Shown here: piece after piece, positions 3,400 to 52,857 of the stretch
How positions within the stretch are numbered: position 1 is the first letter of the stretch
Layout of the letters: the number at the start of each line of letters is the position of its first letter
Virus record (IMG/VR): IMGVR_UViG_3300045051_000978
Location: 62,001 to 126,000 of that record
Strand: one strand, 5' to 3'
DNA: 64,000 bases
From: a virus
The notes under the pieces: generated by a model
What the model saw: the letters and a program-made list of their open reading frames with translations, nothing else
Databases searched by the model: none
Told to the model about the DNA's origin: nothing
Position numbers and translations under genes: made by a program

Positions 3400-3723
3400 A
3401 TGAGGAAAACGCTCGCGCTCAGCTTTCTGGCCATCGTTGCCCTCACGTGCAGCGCCGGTCTGCGCGTCCGCTGGAAGGCCAATCCGGTAGAGGACAACGT
3501 GGTCGATTACCGCGTGTTCTGCGCCACAGGCGACACGCTGGTCTGGGTCAAATCCGCCGGCACAGCGACGCAGCTTGACCTCACGGGAACGGTACCTGAA
3601 GGACTGCTTCGACTCCACGTCACTGCCGTAGACGAAATCGGACTCGAAAGTCTGCCGTCTGCTCCAGCCTACTACACCAACAAGCGCCCCAGCCGGCCAA
3701 ACCTCAAGCAACCACAAGGCTGA
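3400..3723 (+). CDS. Exported fibronectin-III-like protein B
   Basis: 107 residues. The N-terminus MRKTLALSFLAIVALTCSAG is a typical signal peptide. One divergent FnIII-like sandwich follows: VRWKANPVEDNVVDYRVFC, then LRLHVTAVDEIGLESLPSAP. It is a paralogue of the preceding gene and of the proteins at 19766-20817. It ends in a basic, Pro-rich tail. Its stop overlaps the next ATG. Confidence 0.75.
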   Translation: MRKTLALSFLAIVALTCSAGLRVRWKANPVEDNVVDYRVFCATGDTLVWVKSAGTATQLDLTGTVPEGLLRLHVTAVDEIGLESLPSAPAYYTNKRPSRPNLKQPQG

Positions 3724-3956
3724 TGAACCCAATCGTACGTCGAGTCCTCGGAGAATCCGTTGAAGCCAAGCCCCTGGTGCGCTCGTCCAAGCCGCAGGAC
3801 ATCCTCGTGTGCCCGCACTGCCAGAAGGAAGTCTTGGAGAAGCACACGTACTGCGAGAACGGCGTCGATTATCACAGCGACTGCGGAGGGGCCATCGCGT
3901 TTCCGAAGCCGGACCCCGCTTCGATTCCTGCCTGGCTCAAACCCTACATGCCATGA
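3723..3956 (+). CDS. Small zinc-ribbon protein with LxE tag
   Basis: 77 residues. The start MNPIVRRVLGESVE carries the recurrent [IV]Vxx.LxE tag, here as LGE. A possible zinc site follows: CPHC near residue 30, then two further Cys (TYC and DC) and a His. It is coupled to both neighbours by start/stop overlap. If the tag is a capsid-targeting sequence, this is a packaged protein. Function is otherwise unknown. Confidence 0.65.
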   Translation: MNPIVRRVLGESVEAKPLVRSSKPQDILVCPHCQKEVLEKHTYCENGVDYHSDCGGAIAFPKPDPASIPAWLKPYMP

Positions 3957-4297
3957 TCGAGCCTTCCGAAATCGTAGACAGTCTGCTCGAAGCCTCGGGC
4001 AGCAAAACGCGCCGTCTGATTCTTCAGAAAATGGATGCTGTGCGAAAGCGTCCAGGCTTGAGCGCAAATTACGCTCAACTCGTCTCAGGCCCATTCGGTG
4101 CCATTCCATCGTATGCCGAAGAGGACCCCAACTCGGAGTGGTGGGATAGTTCTGCCGCTCAAAACCTGTTGCGAACGCTGACCGACATGCTGTCCCCTGA
4201 CAGCGATTACGGTGTCAAACCCGGTGGGCCGACCCACGTGTACCCCGGTGCCCGTCAGAGCTGGCAGAAGACTGACCGCGATGTTGCCGGCCGATAG
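3953..4297 (+). CDS. Tagged protein of unknown function
   Basis: 114 residues from ATG 3953, which overlaps the preceding TGA. The N-terminus MIEPSEIVDSLLEASG is a clear tag (IV, then LLE). The rest has no recognised domain, though the C-terminus is rich in Gly, Pro and aromatic residues. Its TAG stop is the first part of the TAGTTAG motif preceding the next gene. Confidence 0.65.
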   Translation: MIEPSEIVDSLLEASGSKTRRLILQKMDAVRKRPGLSANYAQLVSGPFGAIPSYAEEDPNSEWWDSSAAQNLLRTLTDMLSPDSDYGVKPGGPTHVYPGARQSWQKTDRDVAGR

Positions 4298-4304
4298 TTA
4301 GAGC

Positions 4305-4625
4305 GTGGCAGGCCAACGCATCGAGCTTCCAAAGCACAGCATGTGGAGCGACACTCCCGTCTACGAAGTAGGCGGCGAGGTGGTGTTCGGGCTCCTCAAA
4401 GATTCTGTCGTTCCCGATGCTTCCGACGAGCTGTACGTCGTGCCTACGGCCGGTGCGGGCAGGCTGGACCTGATCTCTGACCACGCCTACGGCACGCCTG
4501 AACTGTGGTGGGTCATCGCCCGCGTCAACAACATCGCTGACCCGTTCATCGGACCATCAACCGCACAGGAGCTGCGCATCCCAACGCGTGCGCGCCTGGT
4601 CAACCTCGGACTTCTCCAGGTATGA
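4305..4625 (+). CDS. Baseplate wedge protein, gp53-like
   Basis: 106 residues from GTG 4305. The core YGTPELWWVIARVNNIADP followed by ELRIPTRARL is the signature of the T4 gp53/LysM-like baseplate wedge family, in which a short LysM-like fold ends in a conserved IP-R-L motif. It is evidence for a contractile tail. It is coupled to the next gene by an ATGA overlap. TAGTTAG lies 3 nt before the start codon. Confidence 0.8.
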   Translation: MAGQRIELPKHSMWSDTPVYEVGGEVVFGLLKDSVVPDASDELYVVPTAGAGRLDLISDHAYGTPELWWVIARVNNIADPFIGPSTAQELRIPTRARLVNLGLLQV

Positions 4626-5281
4626 GCGCCGCATCCCGCATCGTGCATAAGCTCCTGGAAGATGATTTTGATTTTGATCTGCGAGACGAGATCGAACAGA
4701 TCAAAGCTCCCAAGACGCATCGTTGGAAAATTCAACAGCTGACGTTTCGCGGCTGGGCTGACGTAAAGGTTTCGACAAACAGAGGGTGGTACAGAACGCT
4801 GTATTTCGGCTCCGAAGCAGGCGCACGCGCTGAAATAGCCGGAATGCGCATCCCCGGCAATGACGATGACGAGTACCGGGTGGTAAGTGAGGAAGTACCT
4901 CAGGAGTTCGACCTGTACGAAGACGAGGACGATTTTCGCGACGAGATCGAAGCGATCCCCGTAACAAGCCGAACCGTTACGCGCATCGACGGTCGGTACA
5001 CGGAAGACGGCGATCTGTACGACCACGACACCCATGACCCCGTCGTCATGGAACTTGACGAGTACGACATCGAAGACGGGAAAACGCTTACAGACATCGT
5101 CGTTCGGCACCTAGTTGACGACGGCGCATGCTTCGCATCCAGCTCACACTTTCATCCTGGCGTCTGGTACGACGGTCAGTCCGAGTTCATCGACGATGGC
5201 AGCCAGCAATCGAGCTGGCATCTCAAGGGGTTCTCTGAGGAAGAGGAAGAAGCCATCTTCAAATCGATGATGGGGCGATAA
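4622..5281 (+). CDS. Tagged acidic protein
   Basis: 219 residues. The N-terminus MSAASRIVHKLLEDDFDFDL is a full-length tag with acidic follow-on and DEIEQI. A second, tag-like acidic block (YEDEDDFRDEIEAI) lies near residue 100, suggesting duplication. The protein is very acidic overall and no enzyme motif is visible. A GTAAAC site (5285) lies in the short gap after its stop. Confidence 0.7.
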   Translation: MSAASRIVHKLLEDDFDFDLRDEIEQIKAPKTHRWKIQQLTFRGWADVKVSTNRGWYRTLYFGSEAGARAEIAGMRIPGNDDDEYRVVSEEVPQEFDLYEDEDDFRDEIEAIPVTSRTVTRIDGRYTEDGDLYDHDTHDPVVMELDEYDIEDGKTLTDIVVRHLVDDGACFASSSHFHPGVWYDGQSEFIDDGSQQSSWHLKGFSEEEEEAIFKSMMGR

Positions 5282-5293
5282 AACGTAAACACT

Positions 5294-5767: not shown

Positions 5768-5771
5768 ACCC

Positions 5772-9589: not shown

Positions 9590-10015
9590 TTACGAAAAGT
9601 GCTTGCAGGCATCCCGAATCTGCCGAGCGTTTTCCCAGGCCAGCTCTGGCAGGTTCGACACCTTGGCCCAACGCACCTTTTCGGCGTCATCGTCGGCCAC
9701 CGCCTTCGTTCCTGCCGGCACCCATGTCCAGAAGAAGGTGAGGTGACCGATGTCTACGTCATCCTCCTCGAACTGGTGCATCTCGTCCGCCTCGATGCCC
9801 GTCTCCTCGGTCAGCTCGCGGTACGCTGCATCGCGGTCGCTCTCTCCGCTGTCCACGTGGCCACCTGGGCATGCCCATTTGCCCTTCATGGGCTCACCGC
9901 CACGCTTGATGATCAAGGCTTCCGGGTCCTCGCGGTTACGCAGGACGACGATCCCGACGTAGCGTGCCTGCTCTTCCAGCAAGCGCGCCGCGACTGCGTG
10001 AGCGATGCCTCTCAT
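9590..10015 (-). CDS. Nudix hydrolase with LxE tag
   Basis: 141 residues from ATG 10015. A complete Nudix box is present, GHVDSGESDRDAAYRELTEE then TGI (pattern Gx5Ex7REUxEExGU), around residues 50-72, so hydrolysis of a nucleoside diphosphate derivative is expected. The N-terminus AHAVAARLLEEQ matches the recurrent tag, which would make this a packaged, injected enzyme. The substrate cannot be told from sequence. The stop codon TAA lies in a GTAAAC site. Confidence 0.85.
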   Translation of the reverse strand: MRGIAHAVAARLLEEQARYVGIVVLRNREDPEALIIKRGGEPMKGKWACPGGHVDSGESDRDAAYRELTEETGIEADEMHQFEEDDVDIGHLTFFWTWVPAGTKAVADDDAEKVRWAKVSNLPELAWENARQIRDACKHFS

Positions 10016-10368
10016 GCTGTTGTCTCCACCCACTTGTAGGCGCTGATCGCGCCGCGCAGCGTCGGCTTGCACACACCGGCACGATGCGTGTTGCAGCAGT
10101 ACCAGGTCTTTCCGTTTACGACAGACTTCCAGACGGCCGGTGTCGGTTTGTCCTGGTGGCTGTAGTGCCAGACTGCTCCTGCATCCATGACCTGCTTCCG
10201 CTCCTTGGCTGTAAGCGCCACCTTGCCACGCTTCAGCTTCGCCATGGTCGGCCCGCGCTTGGCCTCCAGGACGCGCCGCGCAAATCCAGGCGGCATGTCC
10301 AGGACAACTTCAACCAGAGCCTTGACCTGAAAAGGCGTGTAGAATTCAGTCGGCATACGGGCAATCAC
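10012..10368 (-). CDS. Unknown protein, Cys-containing C-terminus
   Basis: 118 residues from GTG 10368, which overlaps the upstream stop; ATG 10356 is possible. The middle is basic (AKLKRGKVALTAKERKQVMD), and the C-terminus has WYCCNTHRAGVC, possibly a metal-binding or nucleic-acid-binding patch. No family was recognised. It is coupled to the Nudix gene. Confidence 0.6.
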   Translation of the reverse strand: MIARMPTEFYTPFQVKALVEVVLDMPPGFARRVLEAKRGPTMAKLKRGKVALTAKERKQVMDAGAVWHYSHQDKPTPAVWKSVVNGKTWYCCNTHRAGVCKPTLRGAISAYKWVETTA

Positions 10369-11585
10369 AAACTCTCACGCCAGCGCGCAGACGCCAGAAA
10401 GGTTTCAGTCGTACCGGAAATCCTGGTCGCGCAAATCCAAATCTGGTCGCTGACCCCGGCGATGCTTGCTCCGAGCGAAAGAAAGCCCCTGATCTCTCCC
10501 GATGACGAAGGCGAATACCCACCGCCTTGCTGATCGTACCCGCTGAGCACGATGAAATTCGGACTGCTTACTGTTGTCGCATTGGTTGGAGTAGCCGATT
10601 CAAGCGCACTGTTCGTGACTGGTACCCACGTCGGCGCTGTACCGGCCAAGGTAGGGTTGAAGCACACCACGTATCGGTACGTGGCCGTAGACGTACACAA
10701 AATGTTAAAACTGATCGGTCGAACAGTTGCGCTTTGATGCGTGGATTTCAGGCGAAGCCCGAGCACTGGATAAAGACTAGTGTCGTTGTTCGTTACCAAC
10801 CCAGTGATGCCAGTATCAACTCCGCGCTCAACACCCGTATCGTCAAGACCACCCTCACTGGTTACCGTGCAGCAGATGCAGTCCATGCTCGTAGCTGCTC
10901 CGGCTCCCGTGTTGCTAATCTCGTAGCGCATCGGGAGGTTAGGCGTCGAAGTGTAAACAGACGTTTCAATGTTGGCGTGGTCGATCTGATGCGCGATCAA
11001 GATACGACCATCGAGCACGAACCCAAGGCGTATGCTGCCAACGCCAAGCCACTCGAAATCGAAGTAGAACAGCTGCGCTTTTGTCAGATCGAGTGTGAAG
11101 CCGCTGTAGCCGCCACCGTCGAGCCTGTCGAGATTCCAACCTGACTGAGGGTATACACGATCAACACCTGCCTTACGAACGACGAACGACAAAGTCGTAC
11201 CGTCAAGTTGAAGGAAAACACCGTTGTTGCTGTCGTACAAACCAGCCCGTTTGATCACGCTAGCCACACCGCCATTGAAATTGAACGTCATGAACGCAGT
11301 GTGGCTCTTACCCGGCTGGTAATTGAACCGCCGGAAAGTCTGGCGCACACGTGTGCCAGCAGTAGCGTTCGAGACAGCCAGCCGAATGCGAGCGTCGGAC
11401 TGCAAGTACGTGCTCGAAGTTCCTGAACCTGAAATTTGCTGATCGTCCCAGAAGAGGGTCGGCATGTCCGCCACGATCAGCTTCGAGTCGAACAGCGTTT
11501 TTGGCTCGCTGGTGCGCAGTCGGCCGAAAGCGTCTCGGTACGCTTGAGCCTCGTTGGGATGCGGATTTGGTTGAAAAAGTCCCAT
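10365..11585 (-). CDS. Putative tail or particle structural protein
   Basis: 406 residues. The N-terminal stretch AFGRLRTSEPKTLFDSKLI followed by a YQPGKS motif near residue 90 is, from memory, shared by virion proteins in several myoviruses and marine phages. The remainder is beta-rich with many Thr/Ser/Gly, as in concanavalin-like fibre domains. It heads a group of minus-strand tail genes. Confidence 0.65.
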   Translation of the reverse strand: MGLFQPNPHPNEAQAYRDAFGRLRTSEPKTLFDSKLIVADMPTLFWDDQQISGSGTSSTYLQSDARIRLAVSNATAGTRVRQTFRRFNYQPGKSHTAFMTFNFNGGVASVIKRAGLYDSNNGVFLQLDGTTLSFVVRKAGVDRVYPQSGWNLDRLDGGGYSGFTLDLTKAQLFYFDFEWLGVGSIRLGFVLDGRILIAHQIDHANIETSVYTSTPNLPMRYEISNTGAGAATSMDCICCTVTSEGGLDDTGVERGVDTGITGLVTNNDTSLYPVLGLRLKSTHQSATVRPISFNILCTSTATYRYVVCFNPTLAGTAPTWVPVTNSALESATPTNATTVSSPNFIVLSGYDQQGGGYSPSSSGEIRGFLSLGASIAGVSDQIWICATRISGTTETFLASARWRESL

Positions 11586-13161: not shown

Positions 13162-13644
13162 ATGTCTGAAATCGCGCCCAGCCTCGTCGGTAAGCTCCTG
13201 GAGGACGGTGAGCAGCCTAATCCCGAACGGGAAGAGCTGCATCGTCCGGAGGACGCAGACAAGTGGGAAGGTGCCTACAGGACCTTCGACGAGCTGTGGG
13301 CGCTCAAGCAGAAGCAGATGGAGCTGTTCCGCGAGCTGGGCGCGTCCATCGCCTACCGGCGGGCTCTGCACAAGGTCGGTCTGGTGCCTGGACAGGTGAA
13401 GAATGTCGTGCGCGCCAGTGACATCTACGAGACGACGCCCATCACGCCTGGGCACCCGCTCAAGGCCATCCGCTTCAGCTACGCGAAGCGGTATCCGAAT
13501 GCCCTGGTCGGTGTCGTCACCAAGGACGACCGACACGTCTACTTCCACGATCCCGTGCCGCGGCAGTACGGCGAGCAGGCACCGACCTACGCCGAGTTCA
13601 ACGCTAAGCGGCAGGCGGCTCGGGAACAGGCAGCGGGTTACTAG
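13162..13644 (+). CDS. Tagged protein of unknown function
   Basis: 160 residues. The N-terminus MSEIAPSLVGKLLEDGE is a tag. A charged helical region follows (WALKQKQMELFRELGASIAYRR), then a small mixed domain with VGVVTKDDRHVYFHDPVPR. It is convergent with the next gene, the 3' ends overlapping by 41 bp. Function unknown. Confidence 0.7.
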   Translation: MSEIAPSLVGKLLEDGEQPNPEREELHRPEDADKWEGAYRTFDELWALKQKQMELFRELGASIAYRRALHKVGLVPGQVKNVVRASDIYETTPITPGHPLKAIRFSYAKRYPNALVGVVTKDDRHVYFHDPVPRQYGEQAPTYAEFNAKRQAAREQAAGY

Positions 13645-14482
13645 GCTCAGCGTAGAAAGCCGAGAAGGTGACGGGCAGAATTTCGGACGTGCGCAGCCGC
13701 ATGTCGTCGGGCAGATGCACGCGGACGTTTACAAATCCGCGATCCATGAGGTGCTGCCGAATGGTGCGCGCAATGTCGCCGACGTTCTGCCGCGTCATCT
13801 TCTGCCGCAGCCTTCGCCCACCTGACGCGTGCGTGATGACGCGGGCGCTTACGTTGACGATTCCCTTCCCCTCGTACCAGTTGACGTGCTCGATCTCGTA
13901 GACACCTGGCACGACAGCGCGCAGCTTCGGCAGGAGATCGCCGTGCTCGTTGGGCCACTGAATCTCGTCGGCGATTGAGCCGTCGTCGTCCAGGCTCTCT
14001 TGGCGCGAACCAAACTTGCGCTGCCACTCCTGTTCCTTCCAGAGCCTGCGTTTCTTCGCGATGGACCACCAGTCCCTGTACTTCGGCGGCGCGTACAGCT
14101 TGGGCGCGACCCTGAACGAGACCATGCCTCGCCCAGGCGCATCACTGAGGTTCACGTAGACCTCCACGACAAAAAGATCGTGGGCCGTCGCGAAGCGCTC
14201 TGCACCGCGGCGCAGACGCGTGCGTAGAGCCGACTGTGATGTCTCGGGCGGAGCCTGTACGTCAACCTGGAGGTAAACGTCCCGGTCATCGTGGCCGAGA
14301 TCGCGGCTGTCGTGGGCCAGGTGAAACTTCCAGGGTTGAAGATTGTCGTTGAAGAATTTGACGACCTCTTCTTTTGAAAACGCCGTGGGCGACGCGGCAC
14401 GAACCAGCTCCTCCGAGTCAAAGTCATCGGGCGCTCCATCTTCCAGGAGCGCCCGCGCAACCGAACTGGCCGACGAGATCAC
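13604..14482 (-). CDS. Large tagged protein
   Basis: 292 residues from GTG 14482, which follows the TAGTTAG motif by 3 nt. The N-terminus MISSASSVARALLEDGAPDD is the tag. The body is mixed alpha/beta with two similar-looking strand pairs (VYLQVDVQAPP, VFVVEVYVNL) and a Pro-rich end. No catalytic motif is evident. Confidence 0.7.
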   Translation of the reverse strand: MISSASSVARALLEDGAPDDFDSEELVRAASPTAFSKEEVVKFFNDNLQPWKFHLAHDSRDLGHDDRDVYLQVDVQAPPETSQSALRTRLRRGAERFATAHDLFVVEVYVNLSDAPGRGMVSFRVAPKLYAPPKYRDWWSIAKKRRLWKEQEWQRKFGSRQESLDDDGSIADEIQWPNEHGDLLPKLRAVVPGVYEIEHVNWYEGKGIVNVSARVITHASGGRRLRQKMTRQNVGDIARTIRQHLMDRGFVNVRVHLPDDMRLRTSEILPVTFSAFYAEPSNPLPVPEPPAA

Positions 14483-14835
14483 GCCCTAACTAGCGGCGTC
14501 TGCGCGGCCAGCCATGCCTGGTAGCAGCGTTCCGCGGCCAGCTTGGAATCGTCGCGAGCACTCATCATCTCGCGAGCGCGTTGCTTGGCCTTGAACAGCA
14601 ATCCTGTCGGGAACCAGTGCGGCGCGGCAACGCTCAGGCGCTGACGGATCGCCTCGTAGCGTGGCGTATCCACCTCCGCCCGCTGCTTCACAGCGCTGCC
14701 TGAGTTCGGGTTGACGGACCGAAGCCGGTGCTTGTGCGCCCACTTCAGGTCACGGATGTTGGCACTCAGCTGTCTGTACTCGGCGCGCCACTCAGAACGC
14801 CACAGCAGGTAATCTTCCTTGGTCTTGAATTCCAT
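14479..14835 (-). CDS. Basic helical protein of unknown function
   Basis: 118 residues, strongly basic and helical (RSEWRAEYRQLSANIRDLKWAHKHRLR). Could bind nucleic acid, but no domain was recognised. It overlaps the following gene's GTG start (GTGA). Confidence 0.6.
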   Translation of the reverse strand: MEFKTKEDYLLWRSEWRAEYRQLSANIRDLKWAHKHRLRSVNPNSGSAVKQRAEVDTPRYEAIRQRLSVAAPHWFPTGLLFKAKQRAREMMSARDDSKLAAERCYQAWLAAQTPLVRA

Positions 14836-16817: not shown

Positions 16818-17774
16818 TCAGCTGTACCCGGCGAACTCGAAACCGTCAGGCAGGCCATCACCGTAGCCGTTCACCTCGTTTACGTGCCGCTCTGGATCGT
16901 GCCGGATCGTGATGTATACGCGGTCCATCTCGCCACGGGGCATCGCCTGTCCAGGCTGAAGCTTGATCTTGGAATTGTCGCAGAAAACCGTGACCGTGTA
17001 CCCCTTGTAGCCGTAATCGGCGATCTCGGCAAAATGACGACGCAGGTCCTCGTAGATGCGCTGCATGTCCGACCTGGTGATCCTGCGGTCGAGCGACCGA
17101 GGAACCGCGGTGACGCACAGCTCCTGCGGACCTTTTGACGAACGCCGCCGGTAGACGCTGACGCCGAAGCCCATTCCGCGGAAGACCCGGCGGATTGAAG
17201 GGATGTCGATTTGCATGAGCGGCTCCATGCTCGAAAGCAGCTCGTCGAAATCGTACGCGCTGTCGTCTTCGACGGACTCGCTGATGCTCTGACCGATCTT
17301 GCGGAACCTGTCGAGGACCTGGCCGCGCTCCTGCCAGTCTCTGATTGAGCTTGCCTGCCCGATGACCTCCTCGATCTGCTCCAGGAAGTACCTCAGGCGC
17401 GACCCCTCGATGTCAGGTGTTTTGACGACGAGCTTCGTGTTCGCCTGAGGCGTCGCACGCGGATTGTGCGGGTCATCGCTATCCGTAGACAAAACTGCCC
17501 CAAGCCATTCAGTGAGCTGCTCCCCTGAATCACCGACGCGAGTGCGACGAATCAAAGTGACGACAAGACCGGACCATGTGAACGCGCTCCAATCGCTGCC
17601 AATATCCCACGCTGGATCGAGCTTGAAGAGCTTTCGGTACGGACCTTCGGGTTCGCGCTTGTTGGTCGTGTAGCCGTACTCGCGAAGCGCAGACCTGTAG
17701 TCGAGCGCCTCGACCTCGTCGGTAAAGTCGAAGTCGTCCTCCAACAGCCTGTTTACGATTGCAGCAGCGCGCAC
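16818..17774 (-). CDS. Large tagged protein
   Basis: 318 residues from GTG 17774, which follows TAGTTAC by 3 nt. The N-terminus MRAAAIVNRLLEDDFDFTDE is the best example of the tag. The body contains predicted helices around residues 120-170 and a C-terminal mixed domain with YKGYTVTVFCDNSKIKL. No enzyme motif seen. Confidence 0.7.
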   Translation of the reverse strand: MRAAAIVNRLLEDDFDFTDEVEALDYRSALREYGYTTNKREPEGPYRKLFKLDPAWDIGSDWSAFTWSGLVVTLIRRTRVGDSGEQLTEWLGAVLSTDSDDPHNPRATPQANTKLVVKTPDIEGSRLRYFLEQIEEVIGQASSIRDWQERGQVLDRFRKIGQSISESVEDDSAYDFDELLSSMEPLMQIDIPSIRRVFRGMGFGVSVYRRRSSKGPQELCVTAVPRSLDRRITRSDMQRIYEDLRRHFAEIADYGYKGYTVTVFCDNSKIKLQPGQAMPRGEMDRVYITIRHDPERHVNEVNGYGDGLPDGFEFAGYS

Positions 17775-17784
17775 ACCGTAACTA

Positions 17785-18746: not shown

Positions 18747-18753
18747 TTAGGCC

Positions 18754-30015: not shown

Positions 30016-30320
30016 ACGGGAGTTTGGTTTTCGGGTACTAGAACAGCGTCGATCTGGCTCTGAAGCACTGGGTCGCTGACATGCGGACGAACTGTACACA
30101 AAACCACCAGGACCTGCGCAAGCTTTCTGCGCAGCTGTTCGATTTCGCGTTTGGCAGATTGCGCGTACCCGGCACCATCGAGCAGCTCCTCGGTCTGGTG
30201 ATCCAGCCACTGCTCAATGGTGAGGTCCTTGCGGTCGAGGCTTACCCCGTACTTCCTCAACCCGGTCGCGTCGCGCTCAAGAAGACGACCAATCAGATTC
30301 TCCGTTACCTTAGACGCCAT
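30012..30320 (-). CDS. Tagged small protein, RKYG family
   Basis: 102 residues. LRKYGVSLDRKDLTIEQWLDHQTEELLDGAGY near residue 20-52 is a motif block shared by many phage proteins annotated as MazG-related or unknown. VTENLIGRLLERD at the N-terminus matches the recurrent tag (LIGRLLE). Coupled to ThyX. Confidence 0.65.
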   Translation of the reverse strand: MASKVTENLIGRLLERDATGLRKYGVSLDRKDLTIEQWLDHQTEELLDGAGYAQSAKREIEQLRRKLAQVLVVLCTVRPHVSDPVLQSQIDAVLVPENQTPV

Positions 30321-36719: not shown

Positions 36720-36736
36720 GACATCCTAAATAGACG

Positions 36737-37764: not shown

Positions 37765-38285
37765 CGGGAAATCGAATACCTGGGCGAATCGTGGAAGGAG
37801 TAGCCGATGCGCGTACCATCCTCCGCCCACTCGCGGCTGCGCACTCCGATCTGAACCCATTCGTCACCCTCGGATCGAACGGTCACCGACAGGGCCAGTT
37901 CCCCGGGCAGCTCCTTCTCGTAATACTGCGCCCAGTGCTCAGGGCTCGGAGCGAGGCGCGCCACGTCGAAGCCCATCTGGCGCAACATCTGCAATTCCGG
38001 AACCTGGTTCCACCTGAACTCCGGCGTGTCGGCGTAATCGTCCAGGGCGTCGCCGAAATCGACATCCTCGTCTTCCAATAGCGTCTCAACCACTCTGTTG
38101 ACGTGCTGACGCATCTTCTTGAAGTGCGCAGCAGCAACGGAAATCGGCATGCGTCGGGGCTCCAGCATCTGCACCAGGCGCGCAATCTCCTGCTGAATGA
38201 GCGTCGTGGACTGGCCTGTCGAGTCGAGCCTATCCAGCTCGGCGCGCAGCTCATCGAGACGATGCTGTATTTGTTTACGGTTCAT
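37629..38285 (-). CDS. Tagged protein, internal tag
   Basis: 218 residues. A coiled-coil N-terminus (KQIQHRLDELRAELDRLDST) is followed at about residues 63-75 by NRVVETLLEDEDVDFGD, the recurrent tag with acidic follow-on; ATG at MPISVAAAHF could be the real start. The C-terminus is helical and charged (QQIEHLEEREDLLRK). Function unknown. Confidence 0.65.
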   Translation of the reverse strand: MNRKQIQHRLDELRAELDRLDSTGQSTTLIQQEIARLVQMLEPRRMPISVAAAHFKKMRQHVNRVVETLLEDEDVDFGDALDDYADTPEFRWNQVPELQMLRQMGFDVARLAPSPEHWAQYYEKELPGELALSVTVRSEGDEWVQIGVRSREWAEDGTRIGYSFHDSPRYSISRCVTLRKAVPLVTMLLQQIEHLEEREDLLRKDKLEYLDTWIRLNA

Positions 38286-38863: not shown

Positions 38864-39652
38864 CTAACTAGGCTCATTGCCGAAGGTGGTCGTCCAGTCG
38901 ATCCAGTTGAAGCTTACCTCGACGGACACGTCGCCAAGCGTAGCCTCCACGCTCTCCAGGTCCAGCGTGTTGTAGATCGTATTGACCTCCTCGACGCGCA
39001 TGTTGCTGAACTTGAAGCCAGCCCGGCGCAGCGCTCCTCGAAGCGTGTTGGTCGCGAACAGCGCGAACTTCCTGACGCTCTCCTTCGTCAGCTCTGGAGC
39101 AGGAATCGCACGGGCTCCCGCCTCGTTCCACATAGCCCTGTGTTCCTGATCGAAGAAGGTTCCAATCACGGTGAAGGTTTCATCCTTCGCCTCACCGTGC
39201 ACCTCGACGCTCATCCAACCGCGGTCGTAGAGGTCGTCCTCGATGCCAGCCTTGAGCCGCTTCTTCGGCGCATCCCAGTCCAGCTCGCCGAGCGTCGCCT
39301 CCAGGTCAGGGTCCAGCTCGTCCTCCAGGAGAGTGCTGACCACACACGCGGCGCTCTCGACAACGTCCTCAGCCGACAGCTCTCGGTTCGGCTCAAACCC
39401 GTCCATGGCGTCACCCTTTCCGTAATCAGCGCGTACCTGACCAGCGCTTGTTGCGATTTCGTGTGCCTGCTCCCTGTCTACAAACTCACCACGATCCGTA
39501 ACGAACCCATCCACCCACGGACTATGGGCAATGAACGCCTCGTACGAACCGGACTCGTCGCGAAGCCGGTCGTAGATGTGCGCATGACTGGGACCGGTCA
39601 AAACCCGCCCATCCTTCAAACGCACAGCCGCAGCTTTTATGCGCGTCGTCAC
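38864..39652 (-). CDS. Tagged protein with N-terminal domain
   Basis: 262 residues from GTG 39652, which overlaps the upstream TGA. AAVRLKDGRVLTGPSHAHIY and GFVTDRGEFVDREQAHEIA form an N-terminal domain common in phage proteins. VVSTLLEDELDPDLEATL around residue 105 is the recurrent tag in an internal position, so cleavage there would remove the whole first domain. A C-terminal mixed domain follows. Confidence 0.65.
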   Translation of the reverse strand: MTTRIKAAAVRLKDGRVLTGPSHAHIYDRLRDESGSYEAFIAHSPWVDGFVTDRGEFVDREQAHEIATSAGQVRADYGKGDAMDGFEPNRELSAEDVVESAACVVSTLLEDELDPDLEATLGELDWDAPKKRLKAGIEDDLYDRGWMSVEVHGEAKDETFTVIGTFFDQEHRAMWNEAGARAIPAPELTKESVRKFALFATNTLRGALRRAGFKFSNMRVEEVNTIYNTLDLESVEATLGDVSVEVSFNWIDWTTTFGNEPS

Positions 39653-39957
39653 AGGTAACACTCCGGATGGTAGATGGGATCAGGGCTCCCTGGTTTGAGC
39701 GGCGCGTCAGGCTCATGCACCGACAGCGCGCCGCAGATGTTGCAGACGACCGTGTCCGAGAGCGTGCCGAGCTGAACCTCCTCATGCCTGGAGCCCTCGC
39801 GTCGGCTTGCGGCTTCGGCGTAAATCTCGTCCGGGTCCGTCGTGCCGTACGCCGCGTAGATCATCTGCACAGCTGTCTCGGGCATGGCGTTGACTTCGTC
39901 GGTCAGATCGTCGCCGTCCGCTTCGAGCAACTTGTTTACGATTCGATCAGCGTTCAT
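39649..39957 (-). CDS. Tagged small protein with zinc motif
   Basis: 102 residues from ATG 39957. MNADRIVNKLLEADGDDLTDE is a perfect tag. VVCNICGALSVHEP and HPEC at the C-terminus suggest a zinc site. Coupled to both neighbours by ATGA/GTGA. The tag's Val-Asn is encoded GTAAAC, one of the over-represented hexamers. Confidence 0.7.
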   Translation of the reverse strand: MNADRIVNKLLEADGDDLTDEVNAMPETAVQMIYAAYGTTDPDEIYAEAASRREGSRHEEVQLGTLSDTVVCNICGALSVHEPDAPLKPGSPDPIYHPECYL

Positions 39958-40589
39958 GGCAGTACGCTTCCCTGGGCCACGCGAGCGAGCTGCGCTTCCT
40001 TGGTAGCCTGATGCACGCAAAACTGCGACAGCAGCTCGTCGTTCGGAAATCCCTGCTCGATGAGGGAGAGCGGATCGTCAGCGATCATCGCGCATTGCCG
40101 AAAATACTCGGCCCGCGCTTCGTACCATTCTGCGTACGAATACTTCGCCTTGGCCTGCTCGTACTCCGGAGTTCCCCACGAATACGAACCTTCCGCGTGC
40201 ACTTTGCTGCCTGTGTAGTCACCAACCATCACGTCGATGACGATGATCGGCGCGCCATCGTCTGGACCTGGGTAGAGCGTGATGCCTGGAAAAATCCGCC
40301 TCAGGGTGAATTCACCGTACCGACCTGGGACAGGCCAAAGCGGATAGTCCTTCTGCTGCTTGCGCGGCGGCGTGTAGTCGGTCTCAGCCTCGCACTTGTG
40401 GATGCTGAGGATGAAGTCCGCAGGAGCAAAGTGAATGATGTCCCGCAGCTCAGCAGGCCATGCCGCCCGCGCCTCCTCAACGGAAGCAGCGACCGCCGCG
40501 TCGGCTGCGTCAATTTCGTCCACAAGATCAGCCTCGTCGTCGTCGAGACCGTCTTCCAGCAACCTGTTTACGATACGCGCCGCGTTCAT
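39954..40589 (-). CDS. Tagged protein
   Basis: 211 residues. MNAARIVNRLLEDGLDDDE is the tag, followed by a very acidic segment. The body includes IHFAPADFILSIHKCEAE and PLWPVPGRYGEFTLRRIF, and a helical C-terminal part (YEQAKAKYSYAEWYEARA). No family recognised. Confidence 0.7.
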   Translation of the reverse strand: MNAARIVNRLLEDGLDDDEADLVDEIDAADAAVAASVEEARAAWPAELRDIIHFAPADFILSIHKCEAETDYTPPRKQQKDYPLWPVPGRYGEFTLRRIFPGITLYPGPDDGAPIIVIDVMVGDYTGSKVHAEGSYSWGTPEYEQAKAKYSYAEWYEARAEYFRQCAMIADDPLSLIEQGFPNDELLSQFCVHQATKEAQLARVAQGSVLP

Positions 40590-41767
40590 GACTGCGTTCG
40601 GACGTAGGGTGCTTTGCCGGTGGCAGCAAACGCCGCCCTGACCTGCTGCCTGTACGTCGCGTCAGGAGGCACGTAGGTTCCGCCCTCGGTCGTGTACCCG
40701 AAGTCGGAGATGGAGTGGATGTCGCCGTCGATCTTGCGTCCTGGGTACGCTCGCTGAAACTCCTCTATGTCCAGCCGGCTCGGCGTCTCCGGCGGCTCTT
40801 CGTCCTCCCAGTCCTCAGTGTCCGCGTAGGGCATGTACTCGATGCAGCGACCGCTGGCGTCGAACACGTGCTCTCCCCAGTCGGAGACAACCTTGATTCG
40901 CAAAACCTCCGCCGGCTTGAGCTGATCGATCTCATCGCGCAGATCGTCTTCGCTCTCGTCGATGTAGTCGTCCTTCAGCGCTGGCCATACCGGATCAAAG
41001 ATCAGCCCGAAACTGTTGCCCAGCGAGCGCGCCTCGAACTTCCGGATATGCGGATACAGCTCATTGAACGTCGCGTATACGGTTTTTTGCGCTTTGTCGG
41101 CACGCTCGATGTACGGTTCGTCGCCGTCTGGAACACTCCAGTACACAGCAAACATGTCCTTGTGACTGCCATCGGGCATCGCCATGGCCACGGCATGGCA
41201 GAGCGTGCCAGGCAAGCCGCGCTGACGGAGGCCGCGCACCAGGTCCTCAGGGTCGAAATACTCCGGAAGCTGATCGACCTCGTCCTCAATGTCCTCGATC
41301 AGTTTCCGCACAACCCGGTGCGCTGCGCTCTCGGGCACAGCCTTCCACTCGGTCCGGTCAATGCCCCACTCCTCGACATACTTGGCCATGTCCCGATCCG
41401 CCAACGCGGTCTGGAACGCGGTCTTCCAGCTTTTGGTGTGGCCTTCCTCGGTCTCCCGGTACTTGCGGCGCGCCGTTCGCAGCCAGGTCCGCCAGGCGCG
41501 CTCAGCGTGCTTCTTGGCCTCAGGAAGCTTGGCGCGCTTCAGCTCACCGTCGCGGATCGCACTCAGGCCACGGGGATACTTGATGGATGCCCAGACGCGC
41601 TTGATCTCCTCGTCGCCGGGGAAGACCACCGCCATCGCCGTCAACGAATCCTCCCAGTCGTTGGCTCCGACATACAGCGACCAGCCTGCGCCCTTCTCGA
41701 CGGAGTCGAAATTCTCCGGCTGCCGGAAACGCTCCGAGGACTTCTGCGCTTTCTCGTGGAGGTTCAT
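40586..41767 (-). CDS. Large protein with two internal tag-like segments
   Basis: 393 residues. Positively charged first part (RTARRKYRETEEGHTKSWK), tag-like RVVRKLIEDIEDEVDQL at about residues 150-166, and a second acidic segment ESEDDLRDEIDQL near 275. The last 110 residues (RLDIEEFQRAYPGRKIDGD and following) are homologous to the C-terminal half of the neighbouring 41770-42234 protein, so a module is duplicated. Confidence 0.65.
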   Translation of the reverse strand: MNLHEKAQKSSERFRQPENFDSVEKGAGWSLYVGANDWEDSLTAMAVVFPGDEEIKRVWASIKYPRGLSAIRDGELKRAKLPEAKKHAERAWRTWLRTARRKYRETEEGHTKSWKTAFQTALADRDMAKYVEEWGIDRTEWKAVPESAAHRVVRKLIEDIEDEVDQLPEYFDPEDLVRGLRQRGLPGTLCHAVAMAMPDGSHKDMFAVYWSVPDGDEPYIERADKAQKTVYATFNELYPHIRKFEARSLGNSFGLIFDPVWPALKDDYIDESEDDLRDEIDQLKPAEVLRIKVVSDWGEHVFDASGRCIEYMPYADTEDWEDEEPPETPSRLDIEEFQRAYPGRKIDGDIHSISDFGYTTEGGTYVPPDATYRQQVRAAFAATGKAPYVRTQS

Positions 41768-41769: not shown

Positions 41770-42234
41770 TCAGAGCTGTCCGTCAGCGTAAAGCCGGTCC
41801 TGAACTCGATTCATCGCCTCCCTGTCGAGCTTGCCGTACTCCGGGTACGCCGCAGCCCTGATTTCGCGCAGGTGCATGTCGCGCCGCCAGTCCTCTTCGG
41901 GCGCGCCGTACTCCCCGTTGGCCATCCAGAAGCCCCAGTCCAGGATGTCGTGATGACCGTCGAGCGGGAACGTCGGATACGTCCTCCTGAACTCCTCGAT
42001 GTCGAGACGCACCGGAGCGTACTCCGGGTTCATGTCGTCCTCACCCGGGCCGTAGGTGAGGTTGTCCTCTACCACGTTGCCGTAGCCGTCGAAGGTGATC
42101 TCGCCGTGGCTGGAGCCGAGCGTAATCGTGATGGTGGCCGGATCGTACGGTACATGCTCGATCTGCTCGATCTCGTCGTTGAAATCGGCGTCGTCCTCGA
42201 TCAGACGGTTTACGATTTGATCAGGCGTTTTCAT
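41770..42234 (-). CDS. Tagged protein sharing a module with its neighbour
   Basis: 154 residues. MKTPDQIVNRLIEDDADFND is the tag; NDEIEQI follows. RLDIEEFRRTYPTFPLDGHH begins the module that is repeated at the end of the 40586-41767 protein. Overlaps the next gene by 14 bp. Confidence 0.7.
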   Translation of the reverse strand: MKTPDQIVNRLIEDDADFNDEIEQIEHVPYDPATITITLGSSHGEITFDGYGNVVEDNLTYGPGEDDMNPEYAPVRLDIEEFRRTYPTFPLDGHHDILDWGFWMANGEYGAPEEDWRRDMHLREIRAAAYPEYGKLDREAMNRVQDRLYADGQL

Positions 42235-42760
42235 CGTCCTCGTTTTCCGCGTTGAGCGGCGTGATGGTGAAGCCTTCCCAGTAGCCACTGCCGAAAACGC
42301 TCTCGAAACCGTACATGCGGTACAGGTCGTAGATTTTGTGCGGGAGCGGAAGGGCGTGCCACTCAAACTCAGCCATACCGTTCATCTGGGCAACTTCGCC
42401 GAAATCAGCCCAGTCGTACTCCGTCTCAAGGTTCAGGTTTTTGGCAATGTCAGCCCGGTCAAAACGTTTACGGCTTTCATCTCCAAGCGTGTCGCTGATG
42501 TTGTAGATGAAGATGTACTCGTCGCCAACGTCAGCCCAGGCGATGCCGTACTCAAACAAACTCTCTTCCAGGCTCGCATCCGGACCCTCAAAATTCAGGT
42601 AATCCAGATACTCCAGATGCTTGAGGTTGTCCGTGTGGTGGAGGTTGTCCGGCACCGGCAGGAACGCCGGAATTGCTTCGATGTCCGAACGGAGATCGTC
42701 GTCTCCGAGATCGTCGTCCTCCAGGAGACGGTTGACCGCGGTCTGTGCCAACGTCTTCAT
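42221..42760 (-). CDS. Tagged acidic protein
   Basis: 179 residues. MKTLAQTAVNRLLEDDDLGD is the tag; DDLRSDIEAIP follows. Acidic, aromatic-rich body (FEYGIAWADVGDEYIFIYN). The start overlaps the next gene by ATGA. No family recognised. Confidence 0.7.
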   Translation of the reverse strand: MKTLAQTAVNRLLEDDDLGDDDLRSDIEAIPAFLPVPDNLHHTDNLKHLEYLDYLNFEGPDASLEESLFEYGIAWADVGDEYIFIYNISDTLGDESRKRFDRADIAKNLNLETEYDWADFGEVAQMNGMAEFEWHALPLPHKIYDLYRMYGFESVFGSGYWEGFTITPLNAENEDDENA

Positions 42761-43092
42761 CGGATCACCTCCACCTTCCAGCCGGCGTCGCTCCACTTCT
42801 TCATCTCCTGCTCGATCCAGCGCTGCGCCTCGTCCGAATCCCGCACAGGCTGGTGCGCAGCCTTGATGACGCGCAGCTTGCCGGTGTAGTCGTCGAGCCA
42901 CCACTTCGACATCCGGTACTCGAAACGCGTCTTACTCCCAGGCGCAGGTTCCAAACGCCACTCCACGCGCTCCGGATCGTTCCTGGCGACGAAGCCCGCC
43001 GGGTAGTCGTACTCGCTGGGCTGATCGAGCGGATCGTCGATGTCGTAGGCCGACATCTCCAGCAAACGATTGACGATGCGCTGCGCGTTCAT
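42757..43092 (-). CDS. Tagged small protein
   Basis: 111 residues. MNAQRIVNRLLEMSAYDID is the tag. The middle contains SKWWLDDYTGKLRVIKAAHQ and the C-terminus is helical (QRWIEQEMKKWSDAGW). Overlap with the next start. Confidence 0.7.
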   Translation of the reverse strand: MNAQRIVNRLLEMSAYDIDDPLDQPSEYDYPAGFVARNDPERVEWRLEPAPGSKTRFEYRMSKWWLDDYTGKLRVIKAAHQPVRDSDEAQRWIEQEMKKWSDAGWKVEVIR

Positions 43093-43493
43093 TTGACCAC
43101 CCACCCTCCAAAGAAGCCGTCGTGCCTGACGTAAACGTCCCGCCACTCATCGGCGTATTCGCCGGTTTCAATGTGCGTCAACGAGTCAAAGTCCACACAG
43201 CCCTCGTCCCAAACGTAGCCGACAACGCTGCAATCGCGCCGCACCTTGACCGGCACGTCGTGGTCAGGGTCAATGTCCGGGCACTCGTACCTGGCCAGGA
43301 AAAAGTCCTTCTCCGAGCAGCGCTCAGGATTCTGAAGCTCAGTGGGCGTAAACGGCCAGCGGGCCACGCCACGCGTCACCTCCGCGTGCGCGGTCTCCAG
43401 CTCGTCGCGGATGTCGTCGTCCTCCGACAAAACGCCACGAACCCCGCCGGATTGCTCCAGCAGGGTTCGTACGATGCGCTCGGGCGTCTGCAC
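43089..43493 (-). CDS. Tagged protein, end of the tag cluster
   Basis: 134 residues from GTG 43493, 3 nt after TATTTAG. MQTPERIVRTLLEQSGG is the tag, and DDDIRDELE follows. The rest is acidic with C-rich stretches (NPERCSEKDFFLARYECPD). It begins a block of nine minus-strand genes (43493 to 37629), eight of them tagged. Confidence 0.7.
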   Translation of the reverse strand: MQTPERIVRTLLEQSGGVRGVLSEDDDIRDELETAHAEVTRGVARWPFTPTELQNPERCSEKDFFLARYECPDIDPDHDVPVKVRRDCSVVGYVWDEGCVDFDSLTHIETGEYADEWRDVYVRHDGFFGGWVVK

Positions 43494-43520
43494 GACCTAA
43501 ATAGCTGGTCAGCTGAAAGG

Positions 43521-46035: not shown

Positions 46036-46049
46036 GGCTAGTTAGCTGC

Positions 46050-46472
46050 GTGAAGCGCAGCCGCAACATTCAAGACCCGGCAAGAGTCGTCGCGGAGTGC
46101 CTGCTCGAAACGGCGGACACCTCGTCGAACTTCTGGCTGGGCAAGGGCAAGCTGCATCACGCCATCTATGGGCACGAGCAGTGGGTCGTAGACAATTTTC
46201 CAGACCTGGCCCTGGAACACTCTGGCGGCGACGAAGAACGCGAGGAGCAGCGCTACGAGAACTACGCGATTGCCGAGAAGGCCGGTTACGTCCGTGCGAC
46301 ACGCATCCGAGACACCCTGTACATCGACACGACGACGTACGAGCGGACCTGGACAGACCTTCCGCGGAAGGATCGCAAAGCTGTCGAGGACTACGCATTT
46401 GCCGGCAACCTCGCCGTGGTGTTCGATGGCATCACTGTGCTTGAACGCCCACATGATCCGTCAGCTTCCTGA
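46050..46472 (+). CDS. Tagged protein, isolated plus-strand gene
   Basis: 140 residues from GTG 46050, 4 nt after TAGTTAG. NIQDPARVVAECLLETAD is a good tag. LHHAIYGHEQWVVDNFPDL follows. It overlaps the convergent gene by 12 bp. No family recognised. Confidence 0.65.
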   Translation: MKRSRNIQDPARVVAECLLETADTSSNFWLGKGKLHHAIYGHEQWVVDNFPDLALEHSGGDEEREEQRYENYAIAEKAGYVRATRIRDTLYIDTTTYERTWTDLPRKDRKAVEDYAFAGNLAVVFDGITVLERPHDPSAS

Positions 46473-49185: not shown

Positions 49186-49191
49186 ATTCGT

Positions 49192-50009: not shown

Positions 50010-50033
50010 GGTCAGACGGGTGGGCGATGACGG

Positions 50034-50609: not shown

Positions 50610-50618
50610 TGTGGCGTC

Positions 50619-50647
50619 ACTGTATACAGAATGAACGCCACCGTCAA
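50619..50647 (-). promoter_or_regulatory. Sigma70-like promoter, near-leaderless
   Basis: Minus strand: TTGACG (50642-50647), 17 bp, TACAGT (50619-50624), then 9 nt to ATG 50609. Strong match. Confidence 0.65.
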
Positions 50648-50664
50648 CCACAAATGTGAAACGT

Positions 50665-50961
50665 TTACAGAAGCTGCGTCATCGGTTCCTGGTCTGGTGG
50701 CTCAGGCAGGTTCGGATCAGGCAACACGTCCGGCACGTCTTTGAGCGCCTGGGCAATCGCCTGAACCGTGCGCACCCAGAGATCGCACTGGCGTGGATTA
50801 TCAGAGAAGGGCACGTCGTCCGAACGCCGGTACGCTTCAAGCACCAGATCGAAGCCGTTGATCGTGATCACCTCAGGCACGTTGGTGCTGTGCCCACGGC
50901 AACCGTTTGGAGTGCAGGGCTGCCCGCACTCGTACTCACCGCAGACAACCTCAACGTTCAT
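50665..50961 (-). CDS. Cys-rich small protein
   Basis: 98 residues from ATG 50961. CGEYECGQPCTPNGCRGHST near the start is a dense Cys cluster likely to bind metal. C-terminus is Pro/Leu-rich (DPNLPEPPDQEP). Confidence 0.6.
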   Translation of the reverse strand: MNVEVVCGEYECGQPCTPNGCRGHSTNVPEVITINGFDLVLEAYRRSDDVPFSDNPRQCDLWVRTVQAIAQALKDVPDVLPDPNLPEPPDQEPMTQLL

Positions 50962-51236
50962 GGCTCCGATCCTCCCAGCCAATCTGCGCTGTACCAGCCG
51001 GCGTCGAGCCAACCCTGCTCAACGCCGTGGCAGCACTTGCTCTGCACCACGATGCCGGTCACCGCTCCAGGGTCTTCCTGAATGCCCGTGACGATCACCT
51101 GGATCGGAACAAACTGACAGTATTCGCACACTCTTCTATCTGTTCGCCTAAACTCTGGCATCTGTGCGTAGTGGGAGAACAGGCGCGCACCAGGCGTGAT
51201 GCGCGCCGCCGTTTCCCGGGTGAAGCGCACACTCAT
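50958..51236 (-). CDS. Small protein with CxxC
   Basis: 92 residues. CEYCQFVPIQVIVTG and KCCHGVEQGWLDAGWYS suggest a zinc site. Coupled to both neighbours. Confidence 0.55.
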   Translation of the reverse strand: MSVRFTRETAARITPGARLFSHYAQMPEFRRTDRRVCEYCQFVPIQVIVTGIQEDPGAVTGIVVQSKCCHGVEQGWLDAGWYSADWLGGSEP

Positions 51237-52345
51237 ACCTGCACGGGTTCAGCGCCGTCGTCTACAGCTTCAGCACCTTCCTGGAGCACGTAGTCCTGCC
51301 ATGGGTGGTCGGGTACGCCGATCCAGGTGCAATCCTCTTCGTAGACCTGCGTCACGCCCGCGCCGCGCAGCCGGCCCTTGGAAGCGTTGACACCCCGGGC
51401 AACGAACGTGCAGCGCTGCAAACGCGTCTGCTCGATGTACGCATTCGGCGCAGCTTCGAGCAGGATCGCTTGAGCCCACTCCGTGTTGCTCTGCTTGAAT
51501 ACGAAACGCGAATCAGCAACGACCATGCGCGTGCGCAACGTGCCCTCGGCCACGGCGCGGAAGTCGAGCGCCCAGTTACAGTCCCAGGCGCTGAAATTGC
51601 GCACCAACACGTCCGCGGCGTTGTCCGTGTCGCAGAAGATCGCCCGAATGAATCCCTCGCTCGTGCAGTCCGTGATCGTCGTGCGGTCGTTGACACCGAA
51701 GCCGGCGTGCGCGGGCGTCGGCGCAAGCACCTGAACGTTGGTGACGTGATTGGCCATGTGCAGAAGACCAGGACGCTTCACGCAGCCCATGTAAACAGCC
51801 GTGATGTAATTCTCCACACCAGCGAGCGCCCGCGTGATGACCCTGCAATCGACGATGCTGTTGCCGCCGTCAGCAAGCGCTTCAGCTGCGTTGTTGACCA
51901 GGATGCCGAAACCTTCATTCACCTCGCCCGACCAGACGCGCATGCCCACCACGTCCTGGACGACCACATCCTTCACCGTCGCGCAGGTCGAGTAGATGTG
52001 GATCGCAACGGTCGGCACCTTGATCTCGGAGCAGTCCAGGGTGAATCCCTCCATCCGCATGGCATGGGAAACGCCCTTGGTGCGCGCACCACCCGTCAGC
52101 AGCTCAACGTACTGCGCGTCCTTCCCTCCGATCTTCGTGTCCACGTTCCTGGCCTTGATCTTGGTCAGGTGCGAACCAGCACCGATGAGGAAGCAGCCTG
52201 GAGCAAGGACGCACAGGTCGTTGCTCTCGAACGCGAATCCGCCCTGCGTCGTGTACTCGCCTTCCATCAGCTGGAAGGTTGTCCCGGGCTGCCGGTTGTT
52301 GCGCAGCACCGTGTCGATGGAGCCTGGAGGAATGGTAATGGTCAT
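51233..52345 (-). CDS. Beta-helix tailspike or receptor-binding protein
   Basis: 370 residues. MTITIPPGSIDTVLRNNRQP, then repeated short strands with N/D turns (LVNNAAEALADGGNSIVDC, VTNVQVLAPTPAHAGFGVND, ADSRFVFKQSNTEWAQAI), as in pectate-lyase-like right-handed beta-helices. In phages these bind and often cleave host surface polysaccharide. It matches a phage that also encodes glycan-modifying enzymes. Confidence 0.75.
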   Translation of the reverse strand: MTITIPPGSIDTVLRNNRQPGTTFQLMEGEYTTQGGFAFESNDLCVLAPGCFLIGAGSHLTKIKARNVDTKIGGKDAQYVELLTGGARTKGVSHAMRMEGFTLDCSEIKVPTVAIHIYSTCATVKDVVVQDVVGMRVWSGEVNEGFGILVNNAAEALADGGNSIVDCRVITRALAGVENYITAVYMGCVKRPGLLHMANHVTNVQVLAPTPAHAGFGVNDRTTITDCTSEGFIRAIFCDTDNAADVLVRNFSAWDCNWALDFRAVAEGTLRTRMVVADSRFVFKQSNTEWAQAILLEAAPNAYIEQTRLQRCTFVARGVNASKGRLRGAGVTQVYEEDCTWIGVPDHPWQDYVLQEGAEAVDDGAEPVQV

Positions 52346-52857
52346 GGCGTCTGTGTGTGTTCCAGTTTGCTGAAGTGCTCGGCAGCCCCCTTCATTCCCC
52401 GCTCCGAGCAGACACGTTTGAACAGCCTAGCAAGCGTAGCGCGCTCCTGGGCGTCAGCGTACGACATGAGATCGTGGGCCGATGCGTGCATGTACTTCGG
52501 GTCGAACCAGACCTCGTCCGCCGTGGTCTTCACGGCACCCTCCTCGTCGTACGGCCGGTGCTCGTTGTCCAGGCGGATGGCCTCGGCCAGGATTAGAAGG
52601 GCGTTGCGGACACGCAAGCTCGAACCGCCGCCGGCATGCGTGCGAAAGCGCGTGCTCGGCATCCCGGATGGTTCGGTCAGAGACATCCCCAACCAGGCGT
52701 CACCGTCGTCGCTGAAGATGATGCGTATCTTGGGGAAGAAGGTGCCGTCGTGGTCGTCGTGCGACCGCTCGTAGATCGTTCGTGTGCGGAGCTGCGGCAG
52801 CCAGAAGTTATCTTCCAATAAGCTCCGCACCATAGACTGGGCTTTTTCTGGGGTCAT
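52342..52857 (-). CDS. Tagged protein
   Basis: 171 residues. MTPEKAQSMVRSLLEDNFW is the tag (MVRSLLED). The body has IRIIFSDDGDAWLGMSLTEP and RNALLILAEAIRLDNEH. No family recognised. Follows the tailspike by ATGA. Confidence 0.65.
   Translation of the reverse strand: MTPEKAQSMVRSLLEDNFWLPQLRTRTIYERSHDDHDGTFFPKIRIIFSDDGDAWLGMSLTEPSGMPSTRFRTHAGGGSSLRVRNALLILAEAIRLDNEHRPYDEEGAVKTTADEVWFDPKYMHASAHDLMSYADAQERATLARLFKRVCSERGMKGAAEHFSKLEHTQTP

Follow-up and report, generated by a model that had tools for sequence, protein, structure and literature searches.

Roughly one protein in ten encoded on the virus record IMGVR_UViG_3300045051_000978, about 21 in all, carries a short amphipathic tag of the form hhxx[L][hx]E at its N-terminus. 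The record comes from an uncultured phage and is 126,921 bases long. The window analyzed here, which encodes 16 of these proteins, is the 64,000-nucleotide stretch from position 62001 to 126000 of that record. Judging from sequence, the tag is probably a capsid-targeting sequence (CTS) of the T4 type, a signal that would take proteins into the prohead and be cleaved there by the prohead protease. This reading is preferred because the tag agrees with T4-type CTSs in every sequence feature tested. In T4, CTSs are propeptides of 10-19 residues that take internal proteins into the core; gp21 removes them by cutting after L/I-X-E (PMC9026906). Here, the Glu of the tag is found at residues 11-20, mostly at 12-15, which agrees with that length, and the gp21-type motif L-x-E is present in every N-terminal case listed beforehand.

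The tag and its carriers

An earlier note, made from the letters of the window, had proposed that about twenty proteins share a tag of the pattern [IV]Vxx[LVC][LIG]E in which L-x-E is invariant. This observation holds, and the tag is well above chance. In its broad form, the tag lies within residues 1-16 of 21 of the 183 proteins of the record, while the next four bins of 16 residues give 2, 0, 2, and 5. Among called window proteins, 8 have the literal pattern at the N-terminus (shuffle mean 0.04, maximum 2 in 2000) and 11 have it anywhere in the protein (shuffle mean 0.41, maximum 4). The remaining listed cases are near-variants, namely VAARLLE, LVGKLLE, VARALLE, LIGRLLE, AVNRLLE, MVRSLLE, VVAECLLE, and IVRRVLGE; counting these, every listed open reading frame (ORF) exists with the motif at or near its expected site. 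Genes were called with an in-house codon-bias script rather than a standard program, each listed ORF was checked, and a 2-kb overlap between stretches of the record counts a few untagged genes twice. In some cases, the likely start differs from that of the longest ORF (near 39957, 42234, 43092, and 10015). The tagged genes of the window are as follows.

3723..3755, plus strand: tag MNPIVRRVLGE, of the head-core-like LGE form, in the 77-residue protein 3723-3956; the G005 homologue begins MKPIQLVEALLGD
3953..3991, plus strand: N-terminal tag MIEPSEIVDSLLE of protein 3953-4297
4622..4660, plus strand: N-terminal tag MSAASRIVHKLLE, then DDFDFDLRDEIEQI, of protein 4622-5281; tagged relative at L146:12683 in G008
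9974..10015, minus strand: N-terminal tag MRGIAHAVAARLLE of the Nudix hydrolase 9590-10015 (Nudix E 2.8e-19)
13162..13203, plus strand: N-terminal tag MSEIAPSLVGKLLE of protein 13162-13644; tagged orthologue MTAKHIVDRLLEND at L116:6492 in G006
14441..14482, minus strand: N-terminal tag ISSASSVARALLE, GTG start, of protein 13604-14482
17739..17774, minus strand: tag RAAAIVNRLLE, then DDFDFTDEVEA, GTG start, of protein 16818-17774
28813..28857, minus strand: doubtful tag MPSEPKTSSTSSLLE of ORF 28615-28857, uncalled and with a weak hydrophobic pattern
30276..30320, minus strand: N-terminal tag MASKVTENLIGRLLE of protein 30012-30320
39922..39957, minus strand: N-terminal tag MNADRIVNKLLE of protein 39649-39957
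40554..40589, minus strand: N-terminal tag MNAARIVNRLLE of protein 39954-40589
42196..42234, minus strand: N-terminal tag MKTPDQIVNRLIE, then DDADFNDEIEQI, of protein 41770-42234
42719..42760, minus strand: N-terminal tag MKTLAQTAVNRLLE of protein 42221-42760
43057..43092, minus strand: N-terminal tag MNAQRIVNRLLE of protein 42757-43092
43455..43493, minus strand: N-terminal tag QTPERIVRTLLE, GTG start, of protein 43089-43493, first gene of the tagged run 43493-38864
46050..46109, plus strand: N-terminal tag ending in DPARVVAECLLE, GTG start, of protein 46050-46472
52813..52857, minus strand: N-terminal tag MTPEKAQSMVRSLLE of protein 52342-52857; VIQTVLES occupies this site in the G005 homologue

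The copy at 28615 (SSTSSLLED) is as weak as the earlier note had said, and its ORF was not called as a gene. Further tagged genes lie beyond the window, in the stretches of the record labeled L001, L002, and L003: L002:5168 and L001:6254 on the minus strand, and L002:8383, L002:9954, and L003:18033 on the plus strand. The tag is often followed by a second, acidic module, for instance DDFDFDLRDEIEQI, DDFDFTDEVEAL, or DDADFNDEIEQI. BLAST matches among the window carriers are limited to the tag region, except for the duplicated pair 40586/41770 and a few marginal hits, and each of the six Leu codons encodes the first Leu of L-x-E in one carrier or another. Since the bodies of the carriers are mostly unrelated and the codons of the tag differ, selection acts on the protein.

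Three internal copies, also listed beforehand, are real:

38073..38093, minus strand: VVETLLE, residues 65-71 of protein 37629-38285; a start at the in-frame ATG shortly before it would yield a standard tag, MRQHVNRVVETLLE
39323..39343, minus strand: VVSTLLE, residues 104-110 of protein 38864-39652, at a fusion junction
41294..41314, minus strand: VVRKLIE, residues 152-158 of protein 40586-41767

In the 38864 protein, the stretch from residue 103 to 250 aligns with the N-terminus of a tagged G006 protein that is encoded separately (L117:9515, beginning MNRIVDKLLE), and residues 4-73, ahead of the internal tag, match a separate ORF of G008. Similarly, the L002:8383 family is fused in G003 behind about 215 residues of other sequence, with FLGDLVESLDDDDESIKDILGG at the junction. 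Because fusion junctions coincide with internal tags in these two proteins, internal tags appear to mark joints between cargo units. The C-terminal part of 40586 duplicates 41770 (37.5% identity over 120 residues), and the G006 homologue of 40586 retains an internal tag, VIVAKLLESD.

Most carriers have no known domain. Those recognized in this phage and its relatives are the Nudix hydrolase, whose tagged orthologue in G008 (L146:17741) is a Nudix-thymidylate kinase fusion, 2'-5' RNA ligase/LigT proteins (G006, G007), a lysozyme (G006), and PDZ-like and HAD/PNKP-like proteins. The tagged LigT/2H phosphoesterase of G006 (L121:14163-15473) is a candidate packaged counter-defense enzyme that weakly matches Acb1, an anti-CBASS protein (E 0.0077, below the cut-off). 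Searches of PDB sequences with 16818 and 13604 gave no significant match.

The tag in relatives and near the prohead protease

The tag was surveyed in nine genomes, this record (G000) and eight relatives. Close relatives sought with single tagged proteins were not found, and an exact DNA pattern for IVNRLLED gave two chance matches in IMG/VR (L006, the one contig checked, is unrelated and rich in AT). Searching with the polymerase gave G001, a contig of 83 kb that encodes an S77 protease (E 5.7e-15) as well as a head protein of the gp23 type. With this head protein as the query, 58 loci were retrieved, the contigs being up to 238 kb long. Enrichment of the tag confined to the first bin recurs in G006 (23/239), G008 (25/279), G003 (20/254), G005 (19/283), and G009 (11/204). 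Across the nine genomes, 139 tagged proteins fall into 113 clusters, 96 of them singletons. In some relatives the tag is nearly identical to that of this record, as with MSANIIVNRLLESD in G006 and MNAHNIVNRLLEVGPDELRPKDY in G008; four tagged G008 proteins are paralogues. Tagged orthologues occur in other phages for the Nudix hydrolase 9590, 13162, L002:5168, and L002:8383, while 3723 and 4622 have tagged relatives with partial matches only.

Across lineages, the tag retains the part that a gp21-type protease would read. In G005, a variant places the Glu one residue later (MKPEDLVEKLLAE, MNNAKTIVDQMLSE); since Leu stands two residues before Glu in both IVxxLLE and IVxxLLxE, the protease motif is retained while the register of the helix is shifted. 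In an unbiased count over the nine genomes, 74 N-terminal cases have Glu at offset 6, and Leu occupies P3 in 45 of them, versus 3/21, 7/28, and 3/31 internally. As a separate observation, a conserved protein encoded near the polymerase (L001:12984-14186, with orthologues in G001, G004, G006, and G008) has VFE in its N-terminus in G004 and LFE, LLE, or LTE in the other four phages, with differing flanks.

For this phage, the link to a protease runs through relatives, because its own record has no protease or major capsid gene: the gp21-type protease and gp23-type head protein families were searched on all 126,921 bases, where the earlier note had suggested looking for a protease, and neither is present, nor is a head module. 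The relatives do have one. PF03420, the T4 gp21 family (S77), scores above its cut-off in 20 of the 20 relatives searched, and G001 and two huge phages have an S77 protease as well; in relatives, the protease adjoins a major head protein of the gp23 type (phrog_138, E 6e-25; phrog_207, E 5e-26). Nearly every relative's protease itself has an N-terminal L-x-E or LLE, with starts such as MRQYLIEG, MARQYLAEG, MAKQLLIEG, MSRILLEDTFDF, MPRILLEDTFDF (G005), and MSKILLEDTW; in some of these, the Met stands for a GTG codon. RLLEDDFDF of the window is similar to the last three (compare MPRILLE followed by DTFDF), and T4 gp21 itself has a comparable site, LIE-9 (PMC9026906). Just upstream of the relatives' protease, at the place of the T4 core genes, there are one or two small, charged, prohead-core-like genes that are also tagged; they begin MDSTIKRILGE, MADIIKLILGE, MTSNPYLKRLLGE, MNKSAIVAKLLGE, MKNNWIGKVLGE, MSYNPFLRRLLGE, MTKNPHLKKLLGE, or MRTTTVRRVLGE. 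In two relatives, a cargo gene with the LLE form lies within the head operon (L064:7004, MKADVIAFKLLEADGE; L049:7012, MNAAQLAFSLLETDGE). In the major head protein, where the earlier note had also suggested looking for the motif, IAAIMLEN of G001 was rejected as a tagged start, as it sits inside a longer N-terminal arm, and [LM]xE before VTRT is a candidate cut site.

A different tag occurs in a distant huge phage. This phage, LR756508, of 484 kb and with an S77 protease, has [KR][LFIV]xx[LIV][LIV]xE (MKIQEQKLRGIIKEE, MRLKELLKED) within residues 1-16 of 21 of 123 proteins, with 0, 3, 1, and 0 in later bins. Its forms, KLRxIIxEE or RLKxLLxE, look unrelated to the tag of this record, and about a dozen of the tagged genes flank its protease (L153:3124-12783). 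An apparent intein-like insert splits the two matched halves of this protease (L153:6480-8204). LR756511 has a few starts like MDFKEWYFINE, a small set with weak enrichment.

Several tagged genes also follow a short DNA element, GTA[GT]TTA(A/G)GG, 8-18 bases ahead of start codons, which looks like a T4-type late promoter with very short leaders and is strongly over-represented in this phage and all eight relatives. Within 20 bases of a start, TA[GTA]TTA precedes 13 genes on the record (0.30 expected); in the relatives, the number per genome is 8-48, with 0.3-1.5 expected. GTA[GT]TTA favors tagged genes (42/214 versus 97/1832 others, p 1.6e-11, which is not a strict probability as the genomes are related), but the element also precedes head-core and baseplate genes, and untagged genes too. 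In the window, late-promoter-like sites include:

14487..14492, minus strand: TAGTTA, just upstream of 13604-14482
17779..17784, minus strand: TAGTTA, just upstream of 16818-17774
43498..43503, minus strand: TATTTA, at the head of the tagged run
46039..46044, plus strand: TAGTTA, upstream of 46050
38865-38870, 36727-36732, and 18744-18749: further sites

Readings of the tag

In the reading that we prefer, the prohead core or scaffold would bind the short N-terminal amphipathic helix, and the bound tag would bring unrelated proteins into the growing prohead. The S77 prohead protease (T4 gp21 type) would then cut after L-x-E, releasing the mature protein inside the head ahead of DNA packaging. 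About twenty proteins, enzymes included, would bear this label, with fused proteins carrying a second, internal tag at the joint between cargo units, and the cargo would probably be ejected with the DNA and act early in infection. Capsid targeting and trimming, as proposed in the earlier note, are partly supported, by the gp21 motif at the end of the tag, the gp21-family protease and gp23-type head protein of relatives, and the tagged protease and core-like genes there; relatives supply the link to a protease. Ejection into the host is likely as well, if less certain than targeting, at about an even chance.

Several points weigh against this reading. The head genes are absent from the record, so the cognate protease is deduced from relatives, and enrichment is weak in two of these, G007 (9/255) and G004 (15/297; reversed control 10). 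The protease recognizes a short motif, and L-x-E may turn up by chance in helices rich in Glu. The tag probably lacks clear sequence similarity to the T4 CTS. The tagged Nudix hydrolase, thymidylate kinase, and HAD phosphatase are not obvious virion cargo. An AlphaFold model of 16818 made without an alignment is poor (predicted local distance difference test score, pLDDT, 45.6), and its predicted tag helix is unreliable. Finally, no virion proteomics for the clade was found in the literature. As to sequence identity, CTSs are said to differ among T4 relatives (PMC9026906), so similarity to the T4 CTS was not treated as defining.

The main alternative, which we consider unlikely, is that the carriers are scaffold-like components of the prohead core, held by the tag and then destroyed by the protease or expelled, rather than injected cargo. 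The clearest carriers in head operons are indeed core-like, charged, low-complexity proteins adjoining the protease, and T4 core proteins are cut up and then removed (PMC9026906). Nevertheless, most carriers are scattered over the genome and vary from one phage to another, and they include several folded enzymes (Nudix, LigT/2H, lysozyme, HAD); thus, cargo fits them better than scaffold.

Amphipathic N-terminal helices are general targeting devices and some carriers are nucleotide enzymes, so that the tag might instead lead to another site in the cell, such as the membrane or a replication compartment, with L-x-E being incidental. This is less probable still, as L-x-E is retained when the remaining helix shifts, protease and core-like genes are tagged, tagged genes share the late-type element with head and baseplate genes, and the polymerase, ligase, and helicases of the record are untagged. 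That the shared N-terminus is a functionless relic of gene duplication or domain shuffling is very improbable: some neighbors are true paralogues (40586/41770 and the four G008 proteins), but the bodies are mostly unrelated, codons vary at fixed residues, and orthologues across phages retain the tag despite diverged surroundings. A promoter or translation signal in DNA or RNA over the first codons, with the peptide as its by-product, can practically be discounted, since the promoter-like element just upstream of several tagged genes lies outside their coding part and also precedes untagged genes, and free codon variation and internal copies already contradict it.

If the tag is a capsid-targeting signal, the capsid cargo of uncultured large phages would be readable from sequence, and any L-x-E-tagged gene would be a candidate for a packaged, possibly injected protein. 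It may equally be true or false that large T4-superfamily phages in general use lineage-specific N-terminal loading tags under the L-x-E rule of their own protease, on about 5-20% of genes and including polyprotein-like fusions cut at internal tags. If so, the list of tags would be a readable inventory of the proteins injected at the start of infection. Several tagged families resemble host-takeover or counter-defense enzymes (Nudix, 2H/LigT with its weak, below-cut-off Acb1 match, and lysozyme). As a capsid-targeting signal, the tag would also make it possible to test directly how many proteins accompany the DNA that a tailed phage delivers, and would provide a natural set of loading tags for protein delivery.

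The record and known systems

The record probably represents part of the genome of a phage of the T4 superfamily, because it encodes an untagged virion structural protein of T4-like cyanophages:

10365..11585, minus strand: virion structural protein, T4-like cyanophage type (phrog_1645, E 1.4e-87), untagged; tblastn matches cyanophages and Salicola phage SCTP-2

Further genes encode a baseplate wedge protein resembling gp6, a DNA polymerase of family A, and an NAD ligase. Other observations concern the record at large. Eighteen tRNA genes cluster at one end (L001:208-9294), and a lone tRNA with anticodon CTA (L002:16958-17031, minus strand), which ARAGORN labels tRNA-Pyl, is a possible amber suppressor; TAG is the stop of 37 of 197 called genes. 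A PurA/PurZ-like adenylosuccinate synthetase (window 21808-23157) and the polymerase (L001:14382-17804), which weakly matches DpoZ, both score below curated cut-offs, and a 2-aminoadenine genome is only a thought. An HldE-like bifunctional heptose kinase/adenylyltransferase (window 53279-54763) is also below its curated cut-off. A phrog_2971 protein of unknown function (window 24093-25100) is shared, at about 41%, with 154-kb mycobacteriophages and also occurs in Rhizobium and Vibrio phages.

No description of the tag was found in the literature, in a search that reached few subscription papers; the 'N-terminal motif' reported for RaK2 concerns tail spikes and is different. Four features are new: the scale, codes that are specific to each lineage, internal tags placed at joints, and the tagging of the protease and core-like genes themselves. 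The closest known system is the CTS of T4 (IPI, IPII, IPIII, and Alt), which, like the tag, is a short N-terminal segment common to different proteins and ending in L/I-x-E; a T4-type protease and major head protein are also present in this clade. Unlike the T4 CTS, the tag has the sequence IVxRLLE-D/E, often with a second acidic module (DDFDFxDEIE, or GPDELRPKDY in G008), and it occurs on about twenty proteins and at internal fusion junctions rather than on the handful listed for T4; its function here is predicted from sequence. In phage P1, an N-terminal segment of DarB likewise directs the protein to the capsid (PMC9024508). This signal, however, was described for a single large protein and with no family of gp21-type tags. 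In SPN3US and phiKZ, the prohead protease also takes N-terminal propeptides off packaged or ejected proteins (PMC5694885). Those propeptides are mostly longer than 100 residues, share no short tag, and have other cleavage motifs. Finally, in bacterial microcompartments, an amphipathic N-terminal encapsulation helix loads unrelated enzymes into a protein shell; unlike the phage tag, these peptides involve no proteolysis, no phage, and no L-x-E rule.

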